IMG/VR virus record: IMGVR_UViG_3300047496_000317
Location: 1-38,145 of that record
DNA from: a virus
Length of the DNA stretch: 38,145 nucleotides
Reading direction: 5' to 3' (one strand)
The notes under the pieces are model-generated. The model was not told the DNA's origin. It searched no databases and worked only from the letters and a program-made list of their open reading frames with translations. Shown here in pieces: positions 5,546 through 38,145 of the stretch. The stretch's first letter is position 1. Every line of letters begins with the position of its first letter. The position numbers and the translations under genes were made by a program.

Positions 5546-5718
5546 TAACACAATCCCCTATGTTCAGCCTCAAGTTGTTCAACCAAACAATCTGCATCTG
5601 CATCTGCATGATCATTATTATTCTGTAGAAAAAAACGATCCCAGTCGGCATCAGTAATTAAGCTCCATGCCATCATTGCTTCACCCAATAGTTTCATGTC
5701 TTCAATTGATAAGCTCAT
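5545..5718 (-). CDS. Short acidic hypothetical protein (57 residues)
   Basis: This gene is just below a 60-residue cut-off but is well supported. Its ATG overlaps the stop of the ERF gene by one base (TAATG), its stop overlaps the XRE gene start in the same way, and AGGAGAAG precedes the start. The product begins MSLSIEDMKLLGEAMMAWSL, has a Trp-rich helical first half and an acidic stretch coded by three tandem copies of a 6-base unit (ATGCAG on the minus strand) giving HADADAD. No family is recognised. The coupling suggests it works with the ERF protein or the regulator. Confidence 0.72.
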   Translation of the reverse strand: MSLSIEDMKLLGEAMMAWSLITDADWDRFFLQNNNDHADADADCLVEQLEAEHRGLC

Positions 5719-6365
5719 TATTCTTCTCCTGTCATAGGGTTTTGTTCAATATACTTACAAATTTCTTCATATTTTTGCCAGGGAATGTCCTTTGACGAAG
5801 TCACTTTGGCGACATTGAGAATGAGTCCCGCGACTTCCTCTTTCGTCCAATTATTGTGAGTCGCTATAGTAAATAGCCTCCGCTGCTGAGCCTCGCTAAT
5901 ACAACCATTCGCCGGAGTCGTCGCCTTTGCCGGAGGGGAAATGGAAACTGCTGTTGATTTTTTTTGCGCCGGAGGTTTGGAGCTCATATTCCCGTCATCA
6001 TCTTCCGTGGGAACGCACAGGATCGCCTCGAGAGTCATTCTCCGGCAATAGGTTAACGCGCTTTTATATCCCTGAGGAGTCTGTCTCTCACATGGTACTG
6101 AGAACTCGGTGCTCATCCATTCACCGTGGCCAGCGATACGCGTAAGGATGCGCAGACGGTTGTCGGGGGCATCTAATGGCCATTGAGTGATATTAAGTCC
6201 ATGCTTTGGTAGTGTTCTTTGAACTGCAGCCCATACGTCGGCGAAATTAGCATATGGGCTACCAAAATGATCATTAATACTACTTTGCTTCGCCGGCTCT
6301 AATTCGCTCTGAACCTTTGCTATGGCTTCGTCTATTTTTACGGTCGATTCACTGGTTTTGAACAT
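5718..6365 (-). CDS. erf: ERF-family single-strand annealing protein
   Basis: A 215-residue recombinase of the ERF family, which anneals complementary single strands during phage recombination and genome circularisation. Family features in order: the conserved SPYANFADVW segment (residues 36-45), TLPKHGLNITQWP (51-63), the PQGYKSALTYCRRM segment (97-110, matching the usual G-SALTYARRY signature) and EDDDGN (121-126). A Pro/Lys/Ser-rich linker of about 30 residues leads to a small helical C-terminal domain (from about 155). AAGGAT precedes the ATG. It probably takes part in replication and end processing with the VRR-NUC nuclease and RNase H. Confidence 0.88.
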   Translation of the reverse strand: MFKTSESTVKIDEAIAKVQSELEPAKQSSINDHFGSPYANFADVWAAVQRTLPKHGLNITQWPLDAPDNRLRILTRIAGHGEWMSTEFSVPCERQTPQGYKSALTYCRRMTLEAILCVPTEDDDGNMSSKPPAQKKSTAVSISPPAKATTPANGCISEAQQRRLFTIATHNNWTKEEVAGLILNVAKVTSSKDIPWQKYEEICKYIEQNPMTGEE

Positions 6366-6637: not shown

Positions 6638-7648
6638 ATGATTAACCTGCTTTTGATTGTGCCCGAAATTTCTGACGGCACTAGTTTCTATCGCGCTGCT
6701 GGCCCCTTGGCCGATATCAGAAAGAAATTTGTAGATATAAATATAATGAGCGTCGGTCAATATACCGAGGCTACGATGAGTTTCGCCGATATCGTTTTCA
6801 TGCAACGGCCCTTTATTGATCAGCATGTTCAGCAAGCCGCCATGGCTAAGGCTAGAAAAATTCCATTACTGATCGATTATGACGATGATTTGTTTTCGGT
6901 AGGGCAAGATAATTTTACAGCAGATATATATAATCAGCCTGGCCTGCAAGAGAATATTAAAAAGTTATGTACAATGGCCGATTGTATTTCTGTCTCGACG
7001 GAAGCCCTTGGTAAAAAGATCGCCAAGATAAACCCAAACGTTATTCTAGTTCCCAACGCTGTGGATACGACTCTATTTAAACCAATGGCTCCCGAGATCG
7101 GCAGGAATAAAACGATTCTATGGCGCGGAAGCCACACGCACTTTAAAGATTTGATAGTTCACAAGGAAGCTATCCTAGATATCTATAAAAAATATCCGGA
7201 ATGGAAATGGTTTTTTGCTGGCTATAATGCGTGGTTCATTACTGAACATATGCACCAGGATCGATGCTTCTATGCTCCCTTTATAAATAATGCGCGACAG
7301 TTTATTGAGCTCCTGCAGGCTCAGAGGGCGGCTATTCATCTCGTTCCGCTATTCGATAGTGAGTTTAATCGTTCGAAATCCAATGTCTCTAAACTAGAGG
7401 CTAGTATTGCCGGATCTGCTACGCTAGTCCCGGATTGGGAAGAGTTCCGTGGCGGAGAAGCGTTTCGATATAAAGATCCTGCTGATTTCCACGCCAAATT
7501 AGAAGAGATGATCAATACTCCGCTCGAGACGCTCGGCGAGATGGCCAACAAGGATTGGGAATGGGTAGAAAAAGAACGATCCCTTGATGTCATAAATAAG
7601 ACTCGCATAGGAATCTTAATGTCAATGCTTGGACTATTAAAGAAATGA
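6638..7648 (+). CDS. GT-B fold glycosyltransferase, GT4-like
   Basis: A 336-residue product with a strong GGAGAG ribosome binding site. Both halves of the GT-B fold show family landmarks: an N-terminal domain with LIDYDDDLF (residues 78-86), the VPNAVDTTLF segment (138-147) that matches the PNGVD..F hinge motif of GT4 enzymes, and a C-terminal donor-binding stretch with SKLEASIAG (251-259) in place of the usual Glu-containing EALA-type motif. The enzyme should transfer a sugar from a nucleotide sugar. The acceptor is unknown. It heads a cassette with an acyltransferase, a hydrolase and a second glycosyltransferase, coupled to the next gene by an ATGA overlap. Confidence 0.82.
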   Translation: MINLLLIVPEISDGTSFYRAAGPLADIRKKFVDINIMSVGQYTEATMSFADIVFMQRPFIDQHVQQAAMAKARKIPLLIDYDDDLFSVGQDNFTADIYNQPGLQENIKKLCTMADCISVSTEALGKKIAKINPNVILVPNAVDTTLFKPMAPEIGRNKTILWRGSHTHFKDLIVHKEAILDIYKKYPEWKWFFAGYNAWFITEHMHQDRCFYAPFINNARQFIELLQAQRAAIHLVPLFDSEFNRSKSNVSKLEASIAGSATLVPDWEEFRGGEAFRYKDPADFHAKLEEMINTPLETLGEMANKDWEWVEKERSLDVINKTRIGILMSMLGLLKK

Positions 7649-8295
7649 AGAACGTTGATAAAAGATATAAAGAGAATTTTATTCACGAAACGGCATTACT
7701 TGGCGAAGGCGTAAAGCTAGGCAAGGGCAACCATATTGGCCCGTACTGCATCATTCAAGGCGAAACAACTATCGGTGACAATAATCGACTCGAAGCTTTC
7801 GTTTCGATAGGGACGCCGGCAGAGCATCGAGATTATTTTAAGCAAGAATTTAATAAAGTCATAATAGGTAATAATAATATTTTTCGTGAATGGCATACGA
7901 CGAATTCCGGGACGACGAGAACGACTACGATTGGAAATAATTGTATCTTCCTTCGTGGTTCTCACGTCGGTCATGACTCGATCGTCGAGGATAAGGTGAC
8001 GCTTTCCTGTAATGTCCTCGTGGGCGGGGAGAGCTATATTATGACGGGTGCTAATATGGGACTTGGTTCTGTTTGCCATCAAAGATCGGTGATCGGCGCT
8101 CAAAGCATGCTCGGCATGAATGCAGTAGTAACGAGAACCTCTAGGATAGCACCGGGGCATATTTATGCCGGTTCACCGGCTCGTATTTTGAGAAAGAATC
8201 AGGTCGGGCTAAACCGTCACGGCATTACCGATGAAATGCTTAAGGTCTGGAATGATCAATTCTTTTCACTACTCTTATCGATAAGGAAGCAATGA
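7645..8295 (+). CDS. LpxA-like left-handed beta-helix acyltransferase
   Basis: A 216-residue hexapeptide-repeat protein. Residues 17-56 and 93-165 consist of short repeats with I/V-G every six residues (LGEGVKLGKGNHIGPYC, TTIGDNN, TTTIGNN). SHVGHD at 106-111 aligns with the catalytic HIAHD region of LpxA, with both His kept (107 and 110). The end (AGSPAR, then VGLNRHGI) matches the LpxA sequence N-A/P-GLKRRGF. LpxA adds a hydroxyacyl chain to UDP-GlcNAc in lipid A synthesis. This copy is shorter than the usual 260 residues because most of the C-terminal helical domain is missing. It could acylate a nucleotide sugar made for the neighbouring glycosyltransferases, or be an acetyltransferase. 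Confidence 0.83.
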   Translation: MKNVDKRYKENFIHETALLGEGVKLGKGNHIGPYCIIQGETTIGDNNRLEAFVSIGTPAEHRDYFKQEFNKVIIGNNNIFREWHTTNSGTTRTTTIGNNCIFLRGSHVGHDSIVEDKVTLSCNVLVGGESYIMTGANMGLGSVCHQRSVIGAQSMLGMNAVVTRTSRIAPGHIYAGSPARILRKNQVGLNRHGITDEMLKVWNDQFFSLLLSIRKQ

Positions 8296-9503
8296 CGAAA
8301 GAACTGGAAACATTTCTTGCTAGCGTTGAGGATGGCGTATTTTATATCGGGCACGCTTCGGCTTTAGTTCGTGTCGCCAATCAGTTAATCCTCTGTGATC
8401 CGGTATGGGATTACAGGCCATACGGCGAGTATTGGAGATTTTTTCCCGAACAAGAGAACTGTAATGAAATATTAGATAGAATTGATTTCTGTGTCATTAG
8501 CCACAAACATGCGGATCACTATCGACCAGAAATTCTAAAAAAATTAGATTGTCCTATAGCAATCATGGGTGGTCGTGATTGGAAGCCTGATGTTAATAAA
8601 TTCTTTGAATTTGCGCCTCTTAAATGGCATCAAGAAGATCTTTGCGAAGTCTATTTCGTTCCTCATGCGTTTAATACGATTGATAGTTCCGTGTTCTTTA
8701 GAAATAAAGAGACGGGATATACGATTTATATCGGGTCAGATAATTTCCTATCTGTAGAATTATTATATGCAATTCGAGAAGATATAGACCGTGTTGATAT
8801 CGCTATGGTTCCCTATTCTTTTGTTCATTGGTGGCCATTTCTTCAAAAAAATATCAGCGATGATTTTAAATATGCAGAAATATGTCGGATGAATAAACAA
8901 TCGATCGATCAGGCGTACGATTTTATCAAGATGATGAGACCAAAAATTATTGTGCCATTTGGAAATAGTTTATTCTATGAAGCCGGCGCGAGTCATATAT
9001 TAAACCGAAGTCTAGCAAATCCGTGGAATCTCCGAGGAGCTTCCCCCATGCTTGCCGGTGATTTTATACTGGATAATCATGTCCATCATGCGCTTGAGAG
9101 TAGCGAACCGCGCTATTATCTCGATATGCTTTATAGCTCATTAGGAGAAGTAGAACTCCCCGAGCTTAATCTCGAATTCGCTGCCCATGAGATGCTTTTT
9201 AATTATCCAAAAAGAATCATGCTATTCGCCAAGAAAATAAATTCAATCGAGATAGACGTGGAAGAGCATTATCTTATTGTGAACGGATTGTGTATCGATC
9301 TAGGGACAAAATCGATAATCATGAGCGGTGAATCATCGACGACACCTAGACATATATTTAATTTCGATCGATCTATTTTTGAAAAATGGATTTGTGGCGA
9401 AATAACGTTTGAGGAAGCAATCGGTACTAGACGGTTCGAGTTTATTCGAGAACCGGATAAATATGATGTGCGAATCTTTGAAATAATGAATCGATGGCTC
9501 TGA
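8292..9503 (+). CDS. Metallo-beta-lactamase-fold hydrolase with extra C-terminal domain
   Basis: A 403-residue product coupled by ATGA to the LpxA-like gene. The zinc signature HKHADH is at residues 71-76, with His123 (FVPHAFN) and Asp148 (YIGSDN) as further metal ligands. FYIGHASALVRV at the front is the usual first strands of the fold. The overall layout is nearest to the UlaG/NAPE-PLD-like branch of hydrolases that act on sugar phosphates or phospholipid-like esters. The last 100 residues form a separate small domain ending RRFEFIREPDKYD. The substrate is unknown; the neighbours suggest a sugar, an acyl-sugar or an activated precursor. Confidence 0.83.
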   Translation: MTKELETFLASVEDGVFYIGHASALVRVANQLILCDPVWDYRPYGEYWRFFPEQENCNEILDRIDFCVISHKHADHYRPEILKKLDCPIAIMGGRDWKPDVNKFFEFAPLKWHQEDLCEVYFVPHAFNTIDSSVFFRNKETGYTIYIGSDNFLSVELLYAIREDIDRVDIAMVPYSFVHWWPFLQKNISDDFKYAEICRMNKQSIDQAYDFIKMMRPKIIVPFGNSLFYEAGASHILNRSLANPWNLRGASPMLAGDFILDNHVHHALESSEPRYYLDMLYSSLGEVELPELNLEFAAHEMLFNYPKRIMLFAKKINSIEIDVEEHYLIVNGLCIDLGTKSIIMSGESSTTPRHIFNFDRSIFEKWICGEITFEEAIGTRRFEFIREPDKYDVRIFEIMNRWL

Positions 9504-9513
9504 GGATAGACTT

Positions 9514-10263
9514 ATGATTTTGGCAGCAACTATTGCTTATAGTGATCATGCTTTTGTACGTCAAGGGGTAGAAAACTTCTATAGATCGGCCTCACGAAGT
9601 GAATTCGATAAACATGCTTTATTCGATCCTGGTTTTCCATATCCCAATAAAGCTGAGAATAAAGAGAGACTCTGGGAGCTCTGCAAAGACTATAGCCTGG
9701 AATACATTTCGATCGAGAATAAGGGGTGCCATCAGAACTTCCAACAAGCTGCCAATGCGTTTGGCCTCGATGAAGGGGATATATTCATCACGGCTTGCCC
9801 GGATATAAAAGTAACGAAGGGTTGGATCACGGCCGGTTGCGATGTCCTCAAAGCGGATCCAGGCTGTTTTACAGTTCAAATGAATCACTTCCTTCTCGTA
9901 GCGCCGCCGGTGCATCGAAAGATGGTCCTGGGAGGCCAGAACATAATGCAGTTCCCTCAGCTATGTGGCTGGTCGACGGGGATGTTCAATATGGGTCTCG
10001 TAAATCTAATTGGAGGCTTTCAGGCCGACTCGGCCCAATATGGTTTTATAGAGCACGCCATGAGTCGTAAACTGGGAGAATTAGGAAAACGCTGGTACCT
10101 GCTCCAGGATTATTATGATGAGGTTCAGAGGAATCCCTGTGAAGTCTATGTCGAGTGGAAACTCCGAAGCGCCCAGAAGGTGACGTGCGACTCCTTCGAA
10201 GTGTGGCTGGAAAAGCGTATAGCACTGGCAGATCACACGTCAGGATTCCATGGTGGTAGATAA
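9514..10263 (+). CDS. GT-A-like glycosyltransferase
   Basis: A 249-residue product with GAGGATA upstream of its ATG. The layout fits a GT-A (GT2-like) nucleotide-sugar transferase: an N-terminal beta strand (ILAATIAYSDH), the NFQQAANAFGLDEGDIF segment (75-91) that matches the stretch before the metal site, and ITACPDIKV (92-100) with Asp97 where the DXD motif is expected. Later residues (GWSTGMFNMG) resemble the acceptor loop of the family. The DXD motif is reduced to one Asp, so metal use is uncertain. It overlaps the nuclease gene that follows by 14 bases. Confidence 0.72.
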   Translation: MILAATIAYSDHAFVRQGVENFYRSASRSEFDKHALFDPGFPYPNKAENKERLWELCKDYSLEYISIENKGCHQNFQQAANAFGLDEGDIFITACPDIKVTKGWITAGCDVLKADPGCFTVQMNHFLLVAPPVHRKMVLGGQNIMQFPQLCGWSTGMFNMGLVNLIGGFQADSAQYGFIEHAMSRKLGELGKRWYLLQDYYDEVQRNPCEVYVEWKLRSAQKVTCDSFEVWLEKRIALADHTSGFHGGR

Positions 10264-10639
10264 TAGAAATCCTGAATCTATAATAAAACGAAAGATTTGT
10301 GACTATCTCGCGATACAACCTCATCTAGTCTACTGGATGAACGAAACAATAGCCGTCAAGGGTAGATCCCGACATAGTAAATATCAGCGCAACGGCGTTA
10401 GCGATATTCTTGGTCACTGGTATGGGAAGTTTTTCGCTATCGAAGTAAAGGCTCCTGGATACAGTAAAACGAGTGAGACTTATCTGCGCCAGCTTGAGTT
10501 CGTACGAGAGATAAATATTTCCGGTGGATTCGCGATGATAACCGATAGTCTAGATAAATTAGATGAAGCCATGTGGGATTATGCCGAGGAAAACAGGTTA
10601 AATTTAAATCGATTAAAGTTTTTTACAACCACGATATAA
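10250..10639 (+). CDS. VRR-NUC domain nuclease
   Basis: A 129-residue protein of the PD-(D/E)XK superfamily, VRR-NUC type, whose members cut branched or flap DNA. The active-site line is GVSDIL (residues 49-54, Asp52), FFAIEVKAPG (61-70, Glu65 and Lys67) and a Gln in LRQLEFV (81). GGFAMITDSLDKL (91-103) is the usual final strand and helix. The stand-alone short form is common in phages, where it may act as a Holliday-junction or recombination nuclease. Here it would complement the ERF annealing protein. Confidence 0.87.
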   Translation: MVVDNRNPESIIKRKICDYLAIQPHLVYWMNETIAVKGRSRHSKYQRNGVSDILGHWYGKFFAIEVKAPGYSKTSETYLRQLEFVREINISGGFAMITDSLDKLDEAMWDYAEENRLNLNRLKFFTTTI

Positions 10640-13355: not shown

Positions 13356-15257
13356 ATGATAAAATTAATGATCGCGTTATTTCTTATGTTCTCGCACGCG
13401 GCTTTCGCTGAAAGCCCTATCGTCTGGTCGAGCGCAAACGGCGTAACATTAGCTCAGATTCTAAATCCCGCTCAAGGCATCGTTCAATACGACGGTAAAC
13501 AGATTCGCGCCCTCAGTGTTAATCCCTCGAGCGGCGGCGGAGTAGCAGCTCCCATAGGATCTCTTGGCCAGTATAATGCTTCCGGTACCGGACAACTTTG
13601 GTTGAAAACAGGATCCGGAAACACTTCCTGGACACAAGTCGCAGCCGGCGGCTCGGGTATTACTTCAATCAATGGTGATACAACGGCGGCACAGCTGATC
13701 ACGGCCGCCTCGACGGGTACTGACTTCACGATCTCAACTGCGGGCGGGACCACTACGGTAGCCATCCCCAGCGCGTCGGCAACGGCCCGTGGGCTCGTTA
13801 CGACTGGTAGTCAGACTATAGCGGGCAATAAAACATTTTCGGGCTCTATAAGCGCTTCCAACCTCACTGGAACGAATACAGGAGATCAGACGATCACTCT
13901 CACGGGAGACGTGACCGGATCAGGTACTGGATCTTTCGCCTCAACGCTCGCCACGGTGAATACCAATATCGGAACCTTTGCGTCTAGTACTGTGAATGGG
14001 AAAGGTCTGATAACCGCTGCCGCCAACTTGACGGGCGACGCAACTACGAGTGGGTCCGCCCTCACGCTCGCTACCGTGAATTCAAACGTCGGAAGCTTCA
14101 CGAATGCCTCGATCACCGTTAATGGCAAAGGGCTGATCACGGCCGCCTCGAGTGGATCCGCCACCACACCCGGTGGATCCAATACTCAAATTCAATATAA
14201 TGATTCAAGCGCTTTCAACGGTGATGCCGCTCTCACATTCACCAAGGCTACGGGCGTTACTTATCTCAAACACGCAACCTCCGATGGCGGCGGCAGCGGC
14301 GCAAACTCAGAGCGTTTCGGCGTGGGAGCGAACGGCACGGGCGCCTCTCAAACCTTACTGGGAGACAATGCCTTCGGCTCTAGTGGCGCATCGAACGTCT
14401 GTATCGGTCACAACTCTTCGTGTAGCAACAGTACGGGCGGCCAAGACACCATCATCGGCACGGCTGCCGTATCTAGTCTCACGGCGAATGGTGCCAATGC
14501 TGGCATAGGGTATAGTCTCTCAATGGGATTCGCTTCGGCAGCAGTAGGCTGGAGCGTTACCTGCGGGAAAGCCGGCGTATGTCTAGGCGCAGGAGCGGCC
14601 GCCACCGACAACGTTACAGGATTGGATATTGTAATTGGTCGATCCAGTACTGATACGCAAAATTCAAACCTTTTAATAGGCACCAACATTGCCAACACGA
14701 CGGGCACCAATCAAGCAATCTTTGGTTCCGCTACCACTCCCTATACGCAATGGTATCTGGGTAGCGGAAAATCCGCCGCGGCACCAAGTGCGATCACTGT
14801 TCAGGCTACTCCCGTGGTTACTGGAACAAGTAATACCGCTGGCGTGAACTTCACCCTAGCAGCTGGTAATGGGACAGGCACTGGTGGATCCGGCGCAATT
14901 AATTTTCAAACGGCTCCCGTCGGATCTACTGGATCCACGCCGAATACGCTAGCAACCGTCGTGTCGATTTCAAATAAGGGAGCGATCAATTCTTCCGCGC
15001 CACAGACGGTATTAACGGCCACAGGTACTGCGACGTTCTCCGAACCCTTCCAGGGTGCTAGCTATAAGAAGGTAATTATTTTTCTAAATGCATTTACCGA
15101 CACAGGCACGCAGACATATACCTATCCAACCGCATTCACGAATACGCCATATGTTTATGGGCTCAGCGCCGGTGTTGCCGGTGCTACAGCATCGACATCT
15201 TCGGTTTCATTCACTGTAACGGGCGCAACAGGCCTTGTATTTTTGGAAGGCTATTAA
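13356..15257 (+). CDS. Tail-fibre-like repeat protein with Sec signal peptide
   Basis: A 633-residue product. AAGGA precedes the ATG. Residues 1-18 are a textbook signal peptide (basic start, hydrophobic core, AFA before the cut). The mature part has fibre-type repeats: TVNTNIGTFASS then VNGKGLITAA at about 200-225, and the related TVNSNVGSF then VNGKGLITAA at about 240-265. A stretch GGSNTQIQYND (273-283) is common to phage and bacterial fibre proteins. The C-terminal 80 residues look like a trimeric tip. Phage fibres normally assemble in the cytoplasm, so a signal peptide is unexpected. It may be a displayed or secreted adhesin. Confidence 0.78.
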   Translation: MIKLMIALFLMFSHAAFAESPIVWSSANGVTLAQILNPAQGIVQYDGKQIRALSVNPSSGGGVAAPIGSLGQYNASGTGQLWLKTGSGNTSWTQVAAGGSGITSINGDTTAAQLITAASTGTDFTISTAGGTTTVAIPSASATARGLVTTGSQTIAGNKTFSGSISASNLTGTNTGDQTITLTGDVTGSGTGSFASTLATVNTNIGTFASSTVNGKGLITAAANLTGDATTSGSALTLATVNSNVGSFTNASITVNGKGLITAASSGSATTPGGSNTQIQYNDSSAFNGDAALTFTKATGVTYLKHATSDGGGSGANSERFGVGANGTGASQTLLGDNAFGSSGASNVCIGHNSSCSNSTGGQDTIIGTAAVSSLTANGANAGIGYSLSMGFASAAVGWSVTCGKAGVCLGAGAAATDNVTGLDIVIGRSSTDTQNSNLLIGTNIANTTGTNQAIFGSATTPYTQWYLGSGKSAAAPSAITVQATPVVTGTSNTAGVNFTLAAGNGTGTGGSGAINFQTAPVGSTGSTPNTLATVVSISNKGAINSSAPQTVLTATGTATFSEPFQGASYKKVIIFLNAFTDTGTQTYTYPTAFTNTPYVYGLSAGVAGATASTSSVSFTVTGATGLVFLEGY

Positions 15258-16034
15258 ATGAAAATACTTTGTAAATACGATGAACTGTTGCCACTTGATA
15301 AATTTATCGAACATCCAAAGAATCCGAATAAACACGATGAACCACAGATTAAGCGATTAGCCGAGCTTTATAAATATCACGGGATTCGTCATCCTATTAT
15401 CGTTTCGAAATTATCAGGATTCATTGTGGCTGGTCACGGACGACTTAGTTCCGCACGACTAGCCGGATTAAAAGAATTTCCGGTAGAATATCAGGACTTC
15501 GATAGTGATGAAGCCGAATACGCTTTCCTTGTGGCAGATAATGCTATCTCCTCGTGGTCGGAACTCGATCTAGCTTCGATTAATTTAGAGATTCCAGCCT
15601 TGGGACCAGATTTTGATATCGATTACTTAGGGCTTAAAGATTTCACTATCGATATTTCCGAAAAACAAGACGGCTTAGGCGATGAAGATCTATATACGAA
15701 AAAAATTTTAGCGCCGATATACGAGCCGAAGGGCGAAAGGCCGCCTATTCACGAGCTTTACGATCGCGCAAAAACCGATGAGCTTATCGCGGAGTTAAAG
15801 GCAATGGAAATCCCGGAAGATATAAAAAATTTCCTGTCCCTAGCGGCACAACGCCATATAATTTTTAACTACGAAAAAATCGCGGAATACTATTCGCATG
15901 CTCCCATCGAGATTAAAACCGAGATGGAAAAATCCGCACTAGTAATTATTGATTTTAATAAAGCGATCGAATATGGGTTCATCACGATGACTAAAGAGAT
16001 AGCAGAGGCATATCCGAGTGCCGATTATGAATGA
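15258..16034 (+). CDS. ParB/sulfiredoxin-fold protein, DNA-modification associated
   Basis: A 258-residue product beginning directly after the fibre stop, with GGAAGG upstream. The N-terminal 100 residues are a ParB-like domain: HPKNPNKHDEPQIKRLAE, HGIRHPIIVS, then VAGHGRLSSARLAGL with the family GHGR box (59-62) and VADNAISSW. In phages such domains often accompany DNA methylases and base-modification enzymes. The C-terminal 150 residues are a helical domain that I do not recognise. It overlaps the glycosyltransferase gene by 17 bases (8 if that gene starts at 16027), so the two products probably act together. Confidence 0.8.
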   Translation: MKILCKYDELLPLDKFIEHPKNPNKHDEPQIKRLAELYKYHGIRHPIIVSKLSGFIVAGHGRLSSARLAGLKEFPVEYQDFDSDEAEYAFLVADNAISSWSELDLASINLEIPALGPDFDIDYLGLKDFTIDISEKQDGLGDEDLYTKKILAPIYEPKGERPPIHELYDRAKTDELIAELKAMEIPEDIKNFLSLAAQRHIIFNYEKIAEYYSHAPIEIKTEMEKSALVIIDFNKAIEYGFITMTKEIAEAYPSADYE

Positions 16035-16881
16035 TTTCGCGGCATTTATCCTTACAAACGGCCGACCGGATAACGTTAAAACCTATAACTCGCTCCGAAA
16101 GCGAGGATATTCCGGGAGGATCGTTATCGTTGTCGATGATCTCGATAAGACGCGAGAACAATACGTAGCCAAATATGGAAATGAAGTCGAGATATTCGAT
16201 AAAAAAGCAATAGCAAAGACTTTCGACTCGGGCGACAATTTCCAGGATATGCGTGCGATTATCTATGCTCGTAACGCTAGTTTCGAGATTGCGAAAAAAC
16301 TTAAAATTAAATATTTTATTCAACTCGATGACGATTATACAGCATTTAAGTTTAGGTTTAACAAAGAGCTAGAATATTGGCCGCGATCAATGAGGAATCT
16401 CGATCGCGTCTTTAGTTCTATGGTGAAGTTTTTCGAGGCTTCCGGCGTCGACTCGATCGCAATGAGTCAGGGCGGCGACTTTATTGGTGGCGAGGAGAAT
16501 CAAAACGCTAAAATAATAACCCTTAAAAGAAAATGCATGAACTCTTTCCTTTGTTCGACGAATCGCCCGTTTAAGTTTATTGGCCGCATTAATGAGGATG
16601 TAAATGCCTATACTCGCCTAGCTAGCACCGGCCTCTTGGTTTTTACAACGAATCAGATATCATTAGAACAAACTCAAACGCAGACGAGCGCCGGCGGTAT
16701 GACAGAACTATATCTCGACTCCGGAACGTATGTGAAATCATTCTATTCGGTAATGTATCAGCCATCTTCTGTAAAGATAAAAATCATACGGGACCGTAAA
16801 GATGCGCGTCTACACCATAGCGTAGCTTGGAATAAAACCGTTCCGAAGATCCTTCGCGAGCCGCTTATAAAGCAGAAATAG
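16018..16881 (+). CDS. Glycosyltransferase resembling the TET/JBP-associated (TAGT) family
   Basis: A 287-residue product starting at GTG 16018 (GAGG about ten bases upstream) or ATG 16027. Landmarks: FILTNGRPDN (10-19), IVIVVDDLD (35-43), DSGDNFQ (70-76), YARN (83-86) and the acidic FIQLDDDYTAF (100-110), which should bind the metal and nucleotide sugar. This order matches what I know of TAGT enzymes, which glycosylate oxidised bases in DNA and in phages are often found with ParB-like proteins. No TET/JBP dioxygenase, hydroxymethylase or pyrimidine-nucleotide enzyme is present in this genome, so the acceptor is open. It could use bases made by the host or a different acceptor. Confidence 0.68.
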   Translation: MPIMNDFAAFILTNGRPDNVKTYNSLRKRGYSGRIVIVVDDLDKTREQYVAKYGNEVEIFDKKAIAKTFDSGDNFQDMRAIIYARNASFEIAKKLKIKYFIQLDDDYTAFKFRFNKELEYWPRSMRNLDRVFSSMVKFFEASGVDSIAMSQGGDFIGGEENQNAKIITLKRKCMNSFLCSTNRPFKFIGRINEDVNAYTRLASTGLLVFTTNQISLEQTQTQTSAGGMTELYLDSGTYVKSFYSVMYQPSSVKIKIIRDRKDARLHHSVAWNKTVPKILREPLIKQK

Positions 16882-37929: not shown

Positions 37930-38145
37930 AGGCTCATCACATAGGATTAATCGGAATGCTTACTCTGGCGCCCGGCTACTATGCTACGAAGCAGGCAATA
38001 GATTTTTTTTATACTCGACGCGAGGCCTATGAAGAGCTAGCGCGCATTCATGAGAGCGAGCAACAGATGCACGTCGAATCGCGCGAAAACGCCAAGGCGC
38101 TGCTCGAGTGGATGCAATCAGTGGATGTCCGAATTATGGCCGTAG
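37926..38145 (+). CDS. Small membrane-anchored protein, N-terminal part (continues at 1)
   Basis: Starts with an ATGA overlap at 37926 and stays open to the end of the window. Across the join at 38018/1 it continues to the stop at 222, for 104 residues. The first 30 residues (MKAHHIGLIGMLTLAPGYYA and following) contain a short hydrophobic span. See the part listed at 1-222 for the C-terminal half and possible role. Confidence 0.75.
   Translation, partial: MKAHHIGLIGMLTLAPGYYATKQAIDFFYTRREAYEELARIHESEQQMHVESRENAKALLEWMQSVDVRIMAV
38019..38145. repeat. Terminal direct repeat, right copy
   Basis: Identical to 1-127. The unique genome is 38,018 bp if this copy is removed. Confidence 0.93.

Follow-up and report, generated by a model that had tools for sequence, protein, structure and literature searches.

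We analyzed a run of four genes at positions 6638 to 10263 of IMG/VR record IMGVR_UViG_3300047496_000317, a viral DNA of 38,145 nucleotides (nt) that was taken at its full length and is referred to here as the window. All four genes lie on the plus strand. Gene 1 (6638..7648; protein P0001, 336 aa) encodes a GT-B glycosyltransferase of PHROG 7162; gene 2 (7645..8295; P0002, 216 aa), a short form of the LpxA-type left-handed beta-helix acyltransferases; gene 3 (8292..9503; P0003, 403 aa), a metallo-beta-lactamase (MBL)-fold protein that appears to be an outlying NamH/CMAH-like relative without a Rieske domain; and gene 4 (9514..10263; P0004, 249 aa), a probable, very divergent glycosyltransferase of the GT-A (GT2-like) type. 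ATGA overlaps join gene 1 to gene 2 (7645-7648) and gene 2 to gene 3 (8292-8295), and a TGAGGATAG stretch resembling a ribosome-binding site stands ahead of the ATG of gene 4. A preliminary description, made from the sequence alone, had given the genes this position and strand, linked the first three by ATGA overlaps, and assigned gene 4 its own ribosome-binding site, and it is borne out in each respect, the coordinates and strand by the open reading frame (ORF) calls. Nineteen ORFs of at least 216 aa occur in the window, whereas 60 first-order Markov random sequences of equal length average 0.017 each and never have more than 1; since such sequences almost never give ORFs of this size, the four are not products of chance. 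The Kyte-Doolittle mean over any 19 residues is no higher than 1.26 in all four proteins, which is consistent with cytoplasmic enzymes.

The window begins and ends with a 127-bp direct repeat (1-127 and 38019-38145), presumably an overlap left by the assembly when a genome is complete. Because it comprises the whole record, carries this terminal repeat, and contains terminase, portal, and major head genes, the window is probably a complete tailed-phage genome.

Predicted enzymes of genes 1, 2, and 4

The GT-B assignment of gene 1 in the preliminary description is supported by the PHROG profile phrog_7162 (glycosyltransferase), matched at 1.6e-30 over residues 15-326; the Pfam model Glyco_trans_1_2 gave 0.0076, under the cutoff. 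A tblastn search with P0001 returned 143 phage records at an E value of ≤0.01, with identities of 23-27% in the 20 rows listed, and a region reading FNRSKSN..LE is common to three phage homologues, those of Atuin, Zuko, and phi92. In these three phages, the relatives lie among groups of several glycosyltransferases or beside terminase and portal genes. The groups phi92 gp163-166 and Zuko gp4-5 resemble the cassette in that a phrog_7162-like GT-B stands beside other sugar genes but differ from it in content, as no LpxA-like or MBL-like annotation was seen near the relatives in phi92, Zuko, or Atuin in the stretches viewed.

The hexapeptide, LpxA-like call for gene 2 likewise holds, with support from Pfam, NCBIfam, and PDB sequence matches. 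P0002 matched NCBIfam lipid_A_lpxA at 7e-38 (130.3 bits, under the equivalog cutoff of 231.05 bits), and its best PDB sequence match was 8e62 (189 aa, 1.6e-29). When P0002 is aligned with LpxA proteins from two cellular sources, its SHVGHD falls opposite AHIGHD and CHVAHD, and the histidines of the H..HD and HQ motifs are kept; we take the H..HD histidine to be the catalytic histidine of LpxA. Cellular matches had identities of 28-38%, and 103 genomes of a 299-genome sample gave an E value of ≤1e-20. Because the PDB, NCBIfam, and motif evidence agree, P0002 is, as judged from its sequence, an LpxA-type acyltransferase, to which we assign no acceptor. Matches were also returned from seven records of a phage collection; the two that were read, MT835680 (L086) and OQ572403 (L087), contain cellular lpxA operons and, judging from these stretches, may represent bacterial contamination of the collection.

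For gene 4, the proposed GT-A identity is weak and comes from a local GT2 similarity and not from a family profile, there being no match to P0004 in Pfam, PHROG, or NCBIfam. A BLAST alignment with a GT2 protein of viral contig L082 (35.7% over 55 aa, 6e-6) and a score of 11.9 bits with a hidden Markov model (HMM), against no more than 5.1 bits for 200 shuffles, make GT-A a plausible assignment. L082, the one viral contig that a scan with P0004 returned, was rejected as a relative of the cassette: its sugar genes, GT2-type and others, are ordinary ones, and it has no match to P0001, P0002, or P0003.

Placement of gene 3

P0003 alone matches only general MBL models in Pfam. Its HxHxDH motif occupies residues 71-76, and H71, H73, D75, and H76 are invariant in a 22-row alignment (A4), in which Pfam finds SCP2_Rv3818 in 14 rows and a Rieske domain in 14. 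An HMM of NamH-like proteins scored P0003 at 78.9 bits over two collinear stretches, residues 16-88 and 153-247, the second with an i-E of 3.7e-7 at Z=100000. The FxREPxxY tail of P0003 aligns with the tail of the NamH-like family, where the motif is FxRxPxxY, and in a phylogenetic tree P0003 falls on the NamH side, split from a RomA-like outgroup with support of 100/99. The best PDB sequence matches were the diiron monooxygenases FrsH and CmlA, weak with P0003 alone and again first with A4. These are the nearest solved relatives of P0003 by sequence; they differ from it in having chains of 530 residues in which the MBL part begins only at about residue 250, and P0003 has no such N-terminal part.

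We take CMAH to belong to the same MBL-fold family as NamH. NamH (Rv3818 in Mycobacterium tuberculosis) is described as a muramic acid hydroxylase with UlaG-like and C-terminal Rieske domains (PMC10050696) and CMAH as an MBL-fold hydroxylase acting on CMP-Neu5Ac (PMC4819959). P0003 has in common with NamH the MBL fold, HxHxDH, the DP.W/W/LN positions, and collinear homology over much of its length, at about 20-24% identity. These comparisons suggest that P0003 is related, at the outer rim, to the N-acetyl-sugar hydroxylases of the NamH-like family and not to the RomA-like proteins. It is not assigned as NamH or CMAH and would be family-like at best; given the missing Rieske domain and a position in the tree outside the NamH clade, we hypothesize, and do not assign, a hydroxylation. 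The preliminary description had called gene 3 an MBL-fold hydrolase: the fold is confirmed by Pfam, but the hydrolase label is doubtful and probably misplaces the emphasis, P0003 siding with NamH-like proteins and its viral relatives lying near nonulosonate genes.

A tblastn search of plasmids with P0003 found 32 records, the relatives in which seeded an alignment (A3). Nine of the 32 records were read, one of them without annotation, and none placed the gene in an annotated glycan cluster; one relative sits in a cluster of the RiPP (ribosomally synthesized and posttranslationally modified peptide) type. Scanning species genomes with A3 gave 80 loci, mostly actinobacterial. Among 398 Pseudomonadota genomes, 14 matched P0003 at an E value of ≤1e-5, the listed matches all falling within residues 7-151; the three loci read encode MBL proteins that we take to be of the RomA type and were set aside. 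No phage-encoded relative of NamH or CMAH was reported in the literature searched, which does not prove its absence from the literature.

Predicted structure of P0003

A single-sequence AlphaFold prediction of P0003 was unusable (pLDDT, 36). With the 22 rows of the alignment, AF2 produced a model (pLDDT, 60.6; pTM, 0.61) of which the core alone is usable, and this core has the MBL fold. In Foldseek, the highest rank went to CmlA, MBL proteins of the UPF0173 type and cAMP-binding ones followed closely, and FrsH was among the top matches; as the alignment includes NamH-like rows, the CmlA fold matches are not independent evidence. In VIA-align, proteins of the 2wyl type, which we take to be UlaG-type, and of the UPF0173 type, together with FrsH, NAPE-PLD, and CmlA, lay within about 2 Z of each other. 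No close viral fold relative was found in BFVD, where four entries reached an E value of ≤0.001, at identities of no more than 14%.

Nonulosonate genes beside relatives of P0003

In viral contigs, the A3 scan produced 81 pattern matches, six of which were confirmed (L223 to L228); five are distinct, L223 and L224 encoding an identical NamH-like protein. A second scan, with alignment A6, added no contig. Among the Rieske-less NamH-like proteins, the best match to P0003 is that in L223 (25.5%, 4.6e-15), where a NeuB-like gene lies just upstream of the MBL gene and a P22-type portal gene and, by eye, a terminase-like ORF lie downstream; the NeuB-like gene of L224 is a fragment at the contig edge. 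In L225, a contig whose viral nature is unconfirmed, PseB-, PseC-, NeuB-, PseH-, and PseF-like genes surround the MBL gene. The short phage contig L228 (L228:18-6539) carries genes for a GNAT protein, a PseC-like aminotransferase, a PseF-like cytidylyltransferase, NeuB, and a NamH-like MBL protein, followed by the large terminase, and by its gene content is a compact phage nonulosonate operon. A 74-kb viral contig encodes, among glycosyltransferase and WecB-like genes, an MBL protein (L226:9986-11482) that carries a Rieske domain as well as SCP2_Rv3818 and branches as sister to the NamH clade.

The NeuB HMM (TIGR03569) matched four of the six viral records with the P0003 family and none of 37 control records, which include the window and form a set that is small and different in kind from the test records. 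In a Pelagibacteraceae locus (L113), a P0003 relative stands beside a PseI-type synthase scoring over the NCBIfam cutoff and a PseH-like acetyltransferase. The Rieske-less NamH-like proteins of L113 and of the viral records L223, L225, L227, and L228 share the architecture of P0003, with 407-444 aa where complete compared with 403 aa, and these records carry genes for NeuB-type synthases.

The L227 record has a weak NeuB-like match, with GNAT-like and integrase-like ORFs elsewhere that were recognized by eye. The stretch L240:4224-9576 of this record holds integrase-like, NeuB-like, and GNAT-like ORFs together with an ORF of 596 aa; judged by eye, the last may resemble Maf-type flagellin glycosyltransferases.

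Linkage of the four genes and the ParB/TAGT pair

Among the genomes searched, the four-gene order is known from this phage only. The preliminary description had proposed searching other phages for the same order and had named single, scattered genes in related phages as evidence against a cassette. The order was not found, and among distant relatives the contrary pattern does hold, as relatives of gene 1 and of gene 3 occur without the other cassette genes. Pattern scans with a single protein, which detect close relatives only, confirmed nothing, either in viral contigs (P0001, P0002, P0003, or the terminase as query) or in species genomes (P0003 as query), and no close relative of the phage was found in these searches.

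A ParB-like gene and a TAGT gene, overlapping by 17 nt, lie at 15258-16881, and the preliminary description had considered both a co-occurrence of the cassette with this pair and a DNA-linked glycan as the target. Among 92 stretches fetched, in which some records are counted twice, ParB matched 80 and TAGT 83, and the two were adjacent in most TAGT loci. Relatives of P0001 to P0004 were present in none of 80 TAGT loci at an E value of ≤0.001, many of these loci being short. P0001, P0002, and P0003 were also absent from the 36 of these loci that were searched as whole records, gene 4 not being included there; this empty result had no positive control and carries little weight. In the parts of viral P0003-family loci examined, no TAGT was seen. 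Twelve stretches from TAGT records had only ParB and TAGT in common with the window, and some of the TAGT loci also show matches to terminase and Erf. The expected co-occurrence was thus not found, and of the targets proposed, the DNA-linked glycan is the least supported.

Discussion

The genes, their linkage, their family relationships, and the nonulosonate neighbors of the viral relatives of P0003 are matters of observation, and the idea that such a cassette builds or remodels an acylated sugar is a reasonable reading of an LpxA-type acyltransferase and two glycosyltransferases, the second of which is its weak part. We tentatively favor, at somewhat less than even probability, the interpretation that this early-region operon alters a cytoplasmic sugar and attaches the product, most likely to a host surface glycan. 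P0002 would acylate a nucleotide sugar at an amino or hydroxyl group, and P0003 would oxidize, most simply hydroxylate, that sugar, either on the N-acyl group or at another of its carbons; lacking a Rieske domain, P0003 would, we propose, draw on a redox partner of the host. The GT-B enzyme P0001, and probably P0004 as GT-A, would then build the product onto an acceptor on the cytoplasmic side, most likely host lipopolysaccharide, capsule, or a nonulosonate-bearing glycan, and the modified surface may change receptor availability after infection. The order of steps, the substrate, oxidation in preference to hydrolysis, the target, and the phenotype are what we infer. A precedent is available in the Acinetobacter genes atr29 and atr30, phage genes proposed to alter the acylation of host surface sugars, as here; in the part of the source available, these prophage-borne O-acetyltransferases are linked to nonulosonates of the host capsule and appear as single acetyltransferase genes, with no mention there of genes for oxidation or transfer (PMC6586298).

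A number of observations weigh against this interpretation. No genome was found in which two of the four genes occur together, and a TIGR03569 search revealed no NeuB-type synthase in the window, unlike the records of the Rieske-less relatives. No Rieske motif is present in P0003 or in the six frames of the window, and P0003 did not match SCP2_Rv3818 in Pfam (E≤0.1 and 0.01), a domain that was also absent from the Pfam matches of L223, one of the relatives without a Rieske domain. At the position of the PFAG or PSAG found in most relatives, P0003 reads PFGN, and in the tree a branch as long as 2.8 changes per site sets it outside 23 other family members (94/82). An HMM of RomA-like proteins also scored it, at 53.1 bits over the N-terminal 75 residues only; the RomA-like and NamH-like sets were both chosen by similarity to P0003, and the relatives in A4 and the NamH-like set were chosen in part by patterns from the tested region, so the comparison is biased. 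Because VIA-align ties UlaG-type, UPF0173, NAPE-PLD, and CmlA structures, the predicted fold offers no choice between an oxygenase and a hydrolase. LpxA, the UDP-GlcNAc O-acyltransferase with which P0002 shares the hexapeptide helix and the H..HD and HQ motifs, has about 260-280 aa, whereas P0002, in the alignment with the two cellular proteins, ends early without the C-terminal helical domain and has another residue in place of the histidine of the LAGHV motif. The GT-A similarity of P0004 is weak.

The chief alternative to a host-surface target is the virion, and a cassette that glycosylates the phage's own virion proteins, with P0003 still acting on sugar, is an unlikely but leading competitor. 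The glycosyltransferase groups and terminase or portal genes around the P0001 relatives of phi92, Zuko, and Atuin speak for it, as do L223 and L228, in which the NeuB-MBL pair stands directly upstream of terminase, and the capsid glycosylation suggested in one report for a phage with two glycosyltransferases (PMC11256854); the present operon, however, lies beside Erf and nuclease genes and not structural genes, and no acceptor protein was identified. The host surface might also be changed with P0003 as an ordinary MBL hydrolase, for instance a deacylase or esterase trimming an acyl group, a reading that we also consider improbable as it stands. The intact HxHxDH motif, the top VIA-align rows (UPF0173 hydrolases and those that we take to be UlaG-type), the RomA-like score over the N-terminal residues, and an active-site region that differs from that of NamH-like proteins would all suit a hydrolase, and they are opposed by the second collinear NamH-like stretch with the common tail motif, by the separation of the RomA-like outgroup, and by the first rank of diiron oxygenases in the sequence matches.

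Two further explanations seem to us far less probable than these. The four genes could be morons that have nothing to do with each other, cotranscribed but with no pathway in common, as the lack of conserved linkage between any two of them, the separate occurrence of relatives of genes 1 and 3, and the endonuclease-like gene joined to the same run might indicate; the 4-nt overlaps that tie three of the genes together, and the fit of all four to sugar chemistry, make this highly doubtful. Slightest of all is the likelihood that the cassette extends a DNA-linked glycan begun by the TAGT of the same phage, a reading to which the ParB/TAGT pair in the window lends itself and to which the absence of cassette genes from TAGT loci, and of TAGT from the parts of viral P0003-family loci examined, is opposed.

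Returning to the favored modification of a cytoplasmic sugar, we note that phage glycan-modification modules are of a known kind and that a NamH/CMAH-like component is unexpected. A more specific proposal, which we consider doubtful, is that LpxA-type acylation and a Rieske-independent hydroxylation by an MBL-fold diiron enzyme would yield an N-glycolyl-like sugar, which the two phage glycosyltransferases would place on the host surface or the virion, and that NamH/CMAH-type enzymes have entered phages more than once, in company with nonulosonate synthesis. If this is true, the kind of enzyme from which N-glycolyl sugars (Neu5Gc and N-glycolyl-muramate) arise is present in bacterial viruses, a new route to receptor alteration or virion masking would be at hand, and small Rieske-free enzymes would become available for probing a poorly understood family of MBL-fold oxygenases. 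The phage nonulosonate operons of L223 and L228 keep the idea testable even if P0003 acts otherwise.

Flanking genes

Downstream of the cassette, a plus-strand gene (10250..10639) encodes an endonuclease-like protein (phrog_93, 1.1e-11) and shares 14 nt with the end of gene 4. Because of this overlap, the operon probably extends past gene 4, and the phrog_93 gene is probably on the four-gene transcript and outside the sugar pathway. On the other side, an Erf-like gene (5718-6365, minus strand) is divergent from the four-gene run. Elsewhere in the window, an ORF of 633 aa (13356-15257) is situated in a stretch with a G+C content of 53-55%, compared with mostly 40-48% in the genome, and has only a weak match, to BppL_N.

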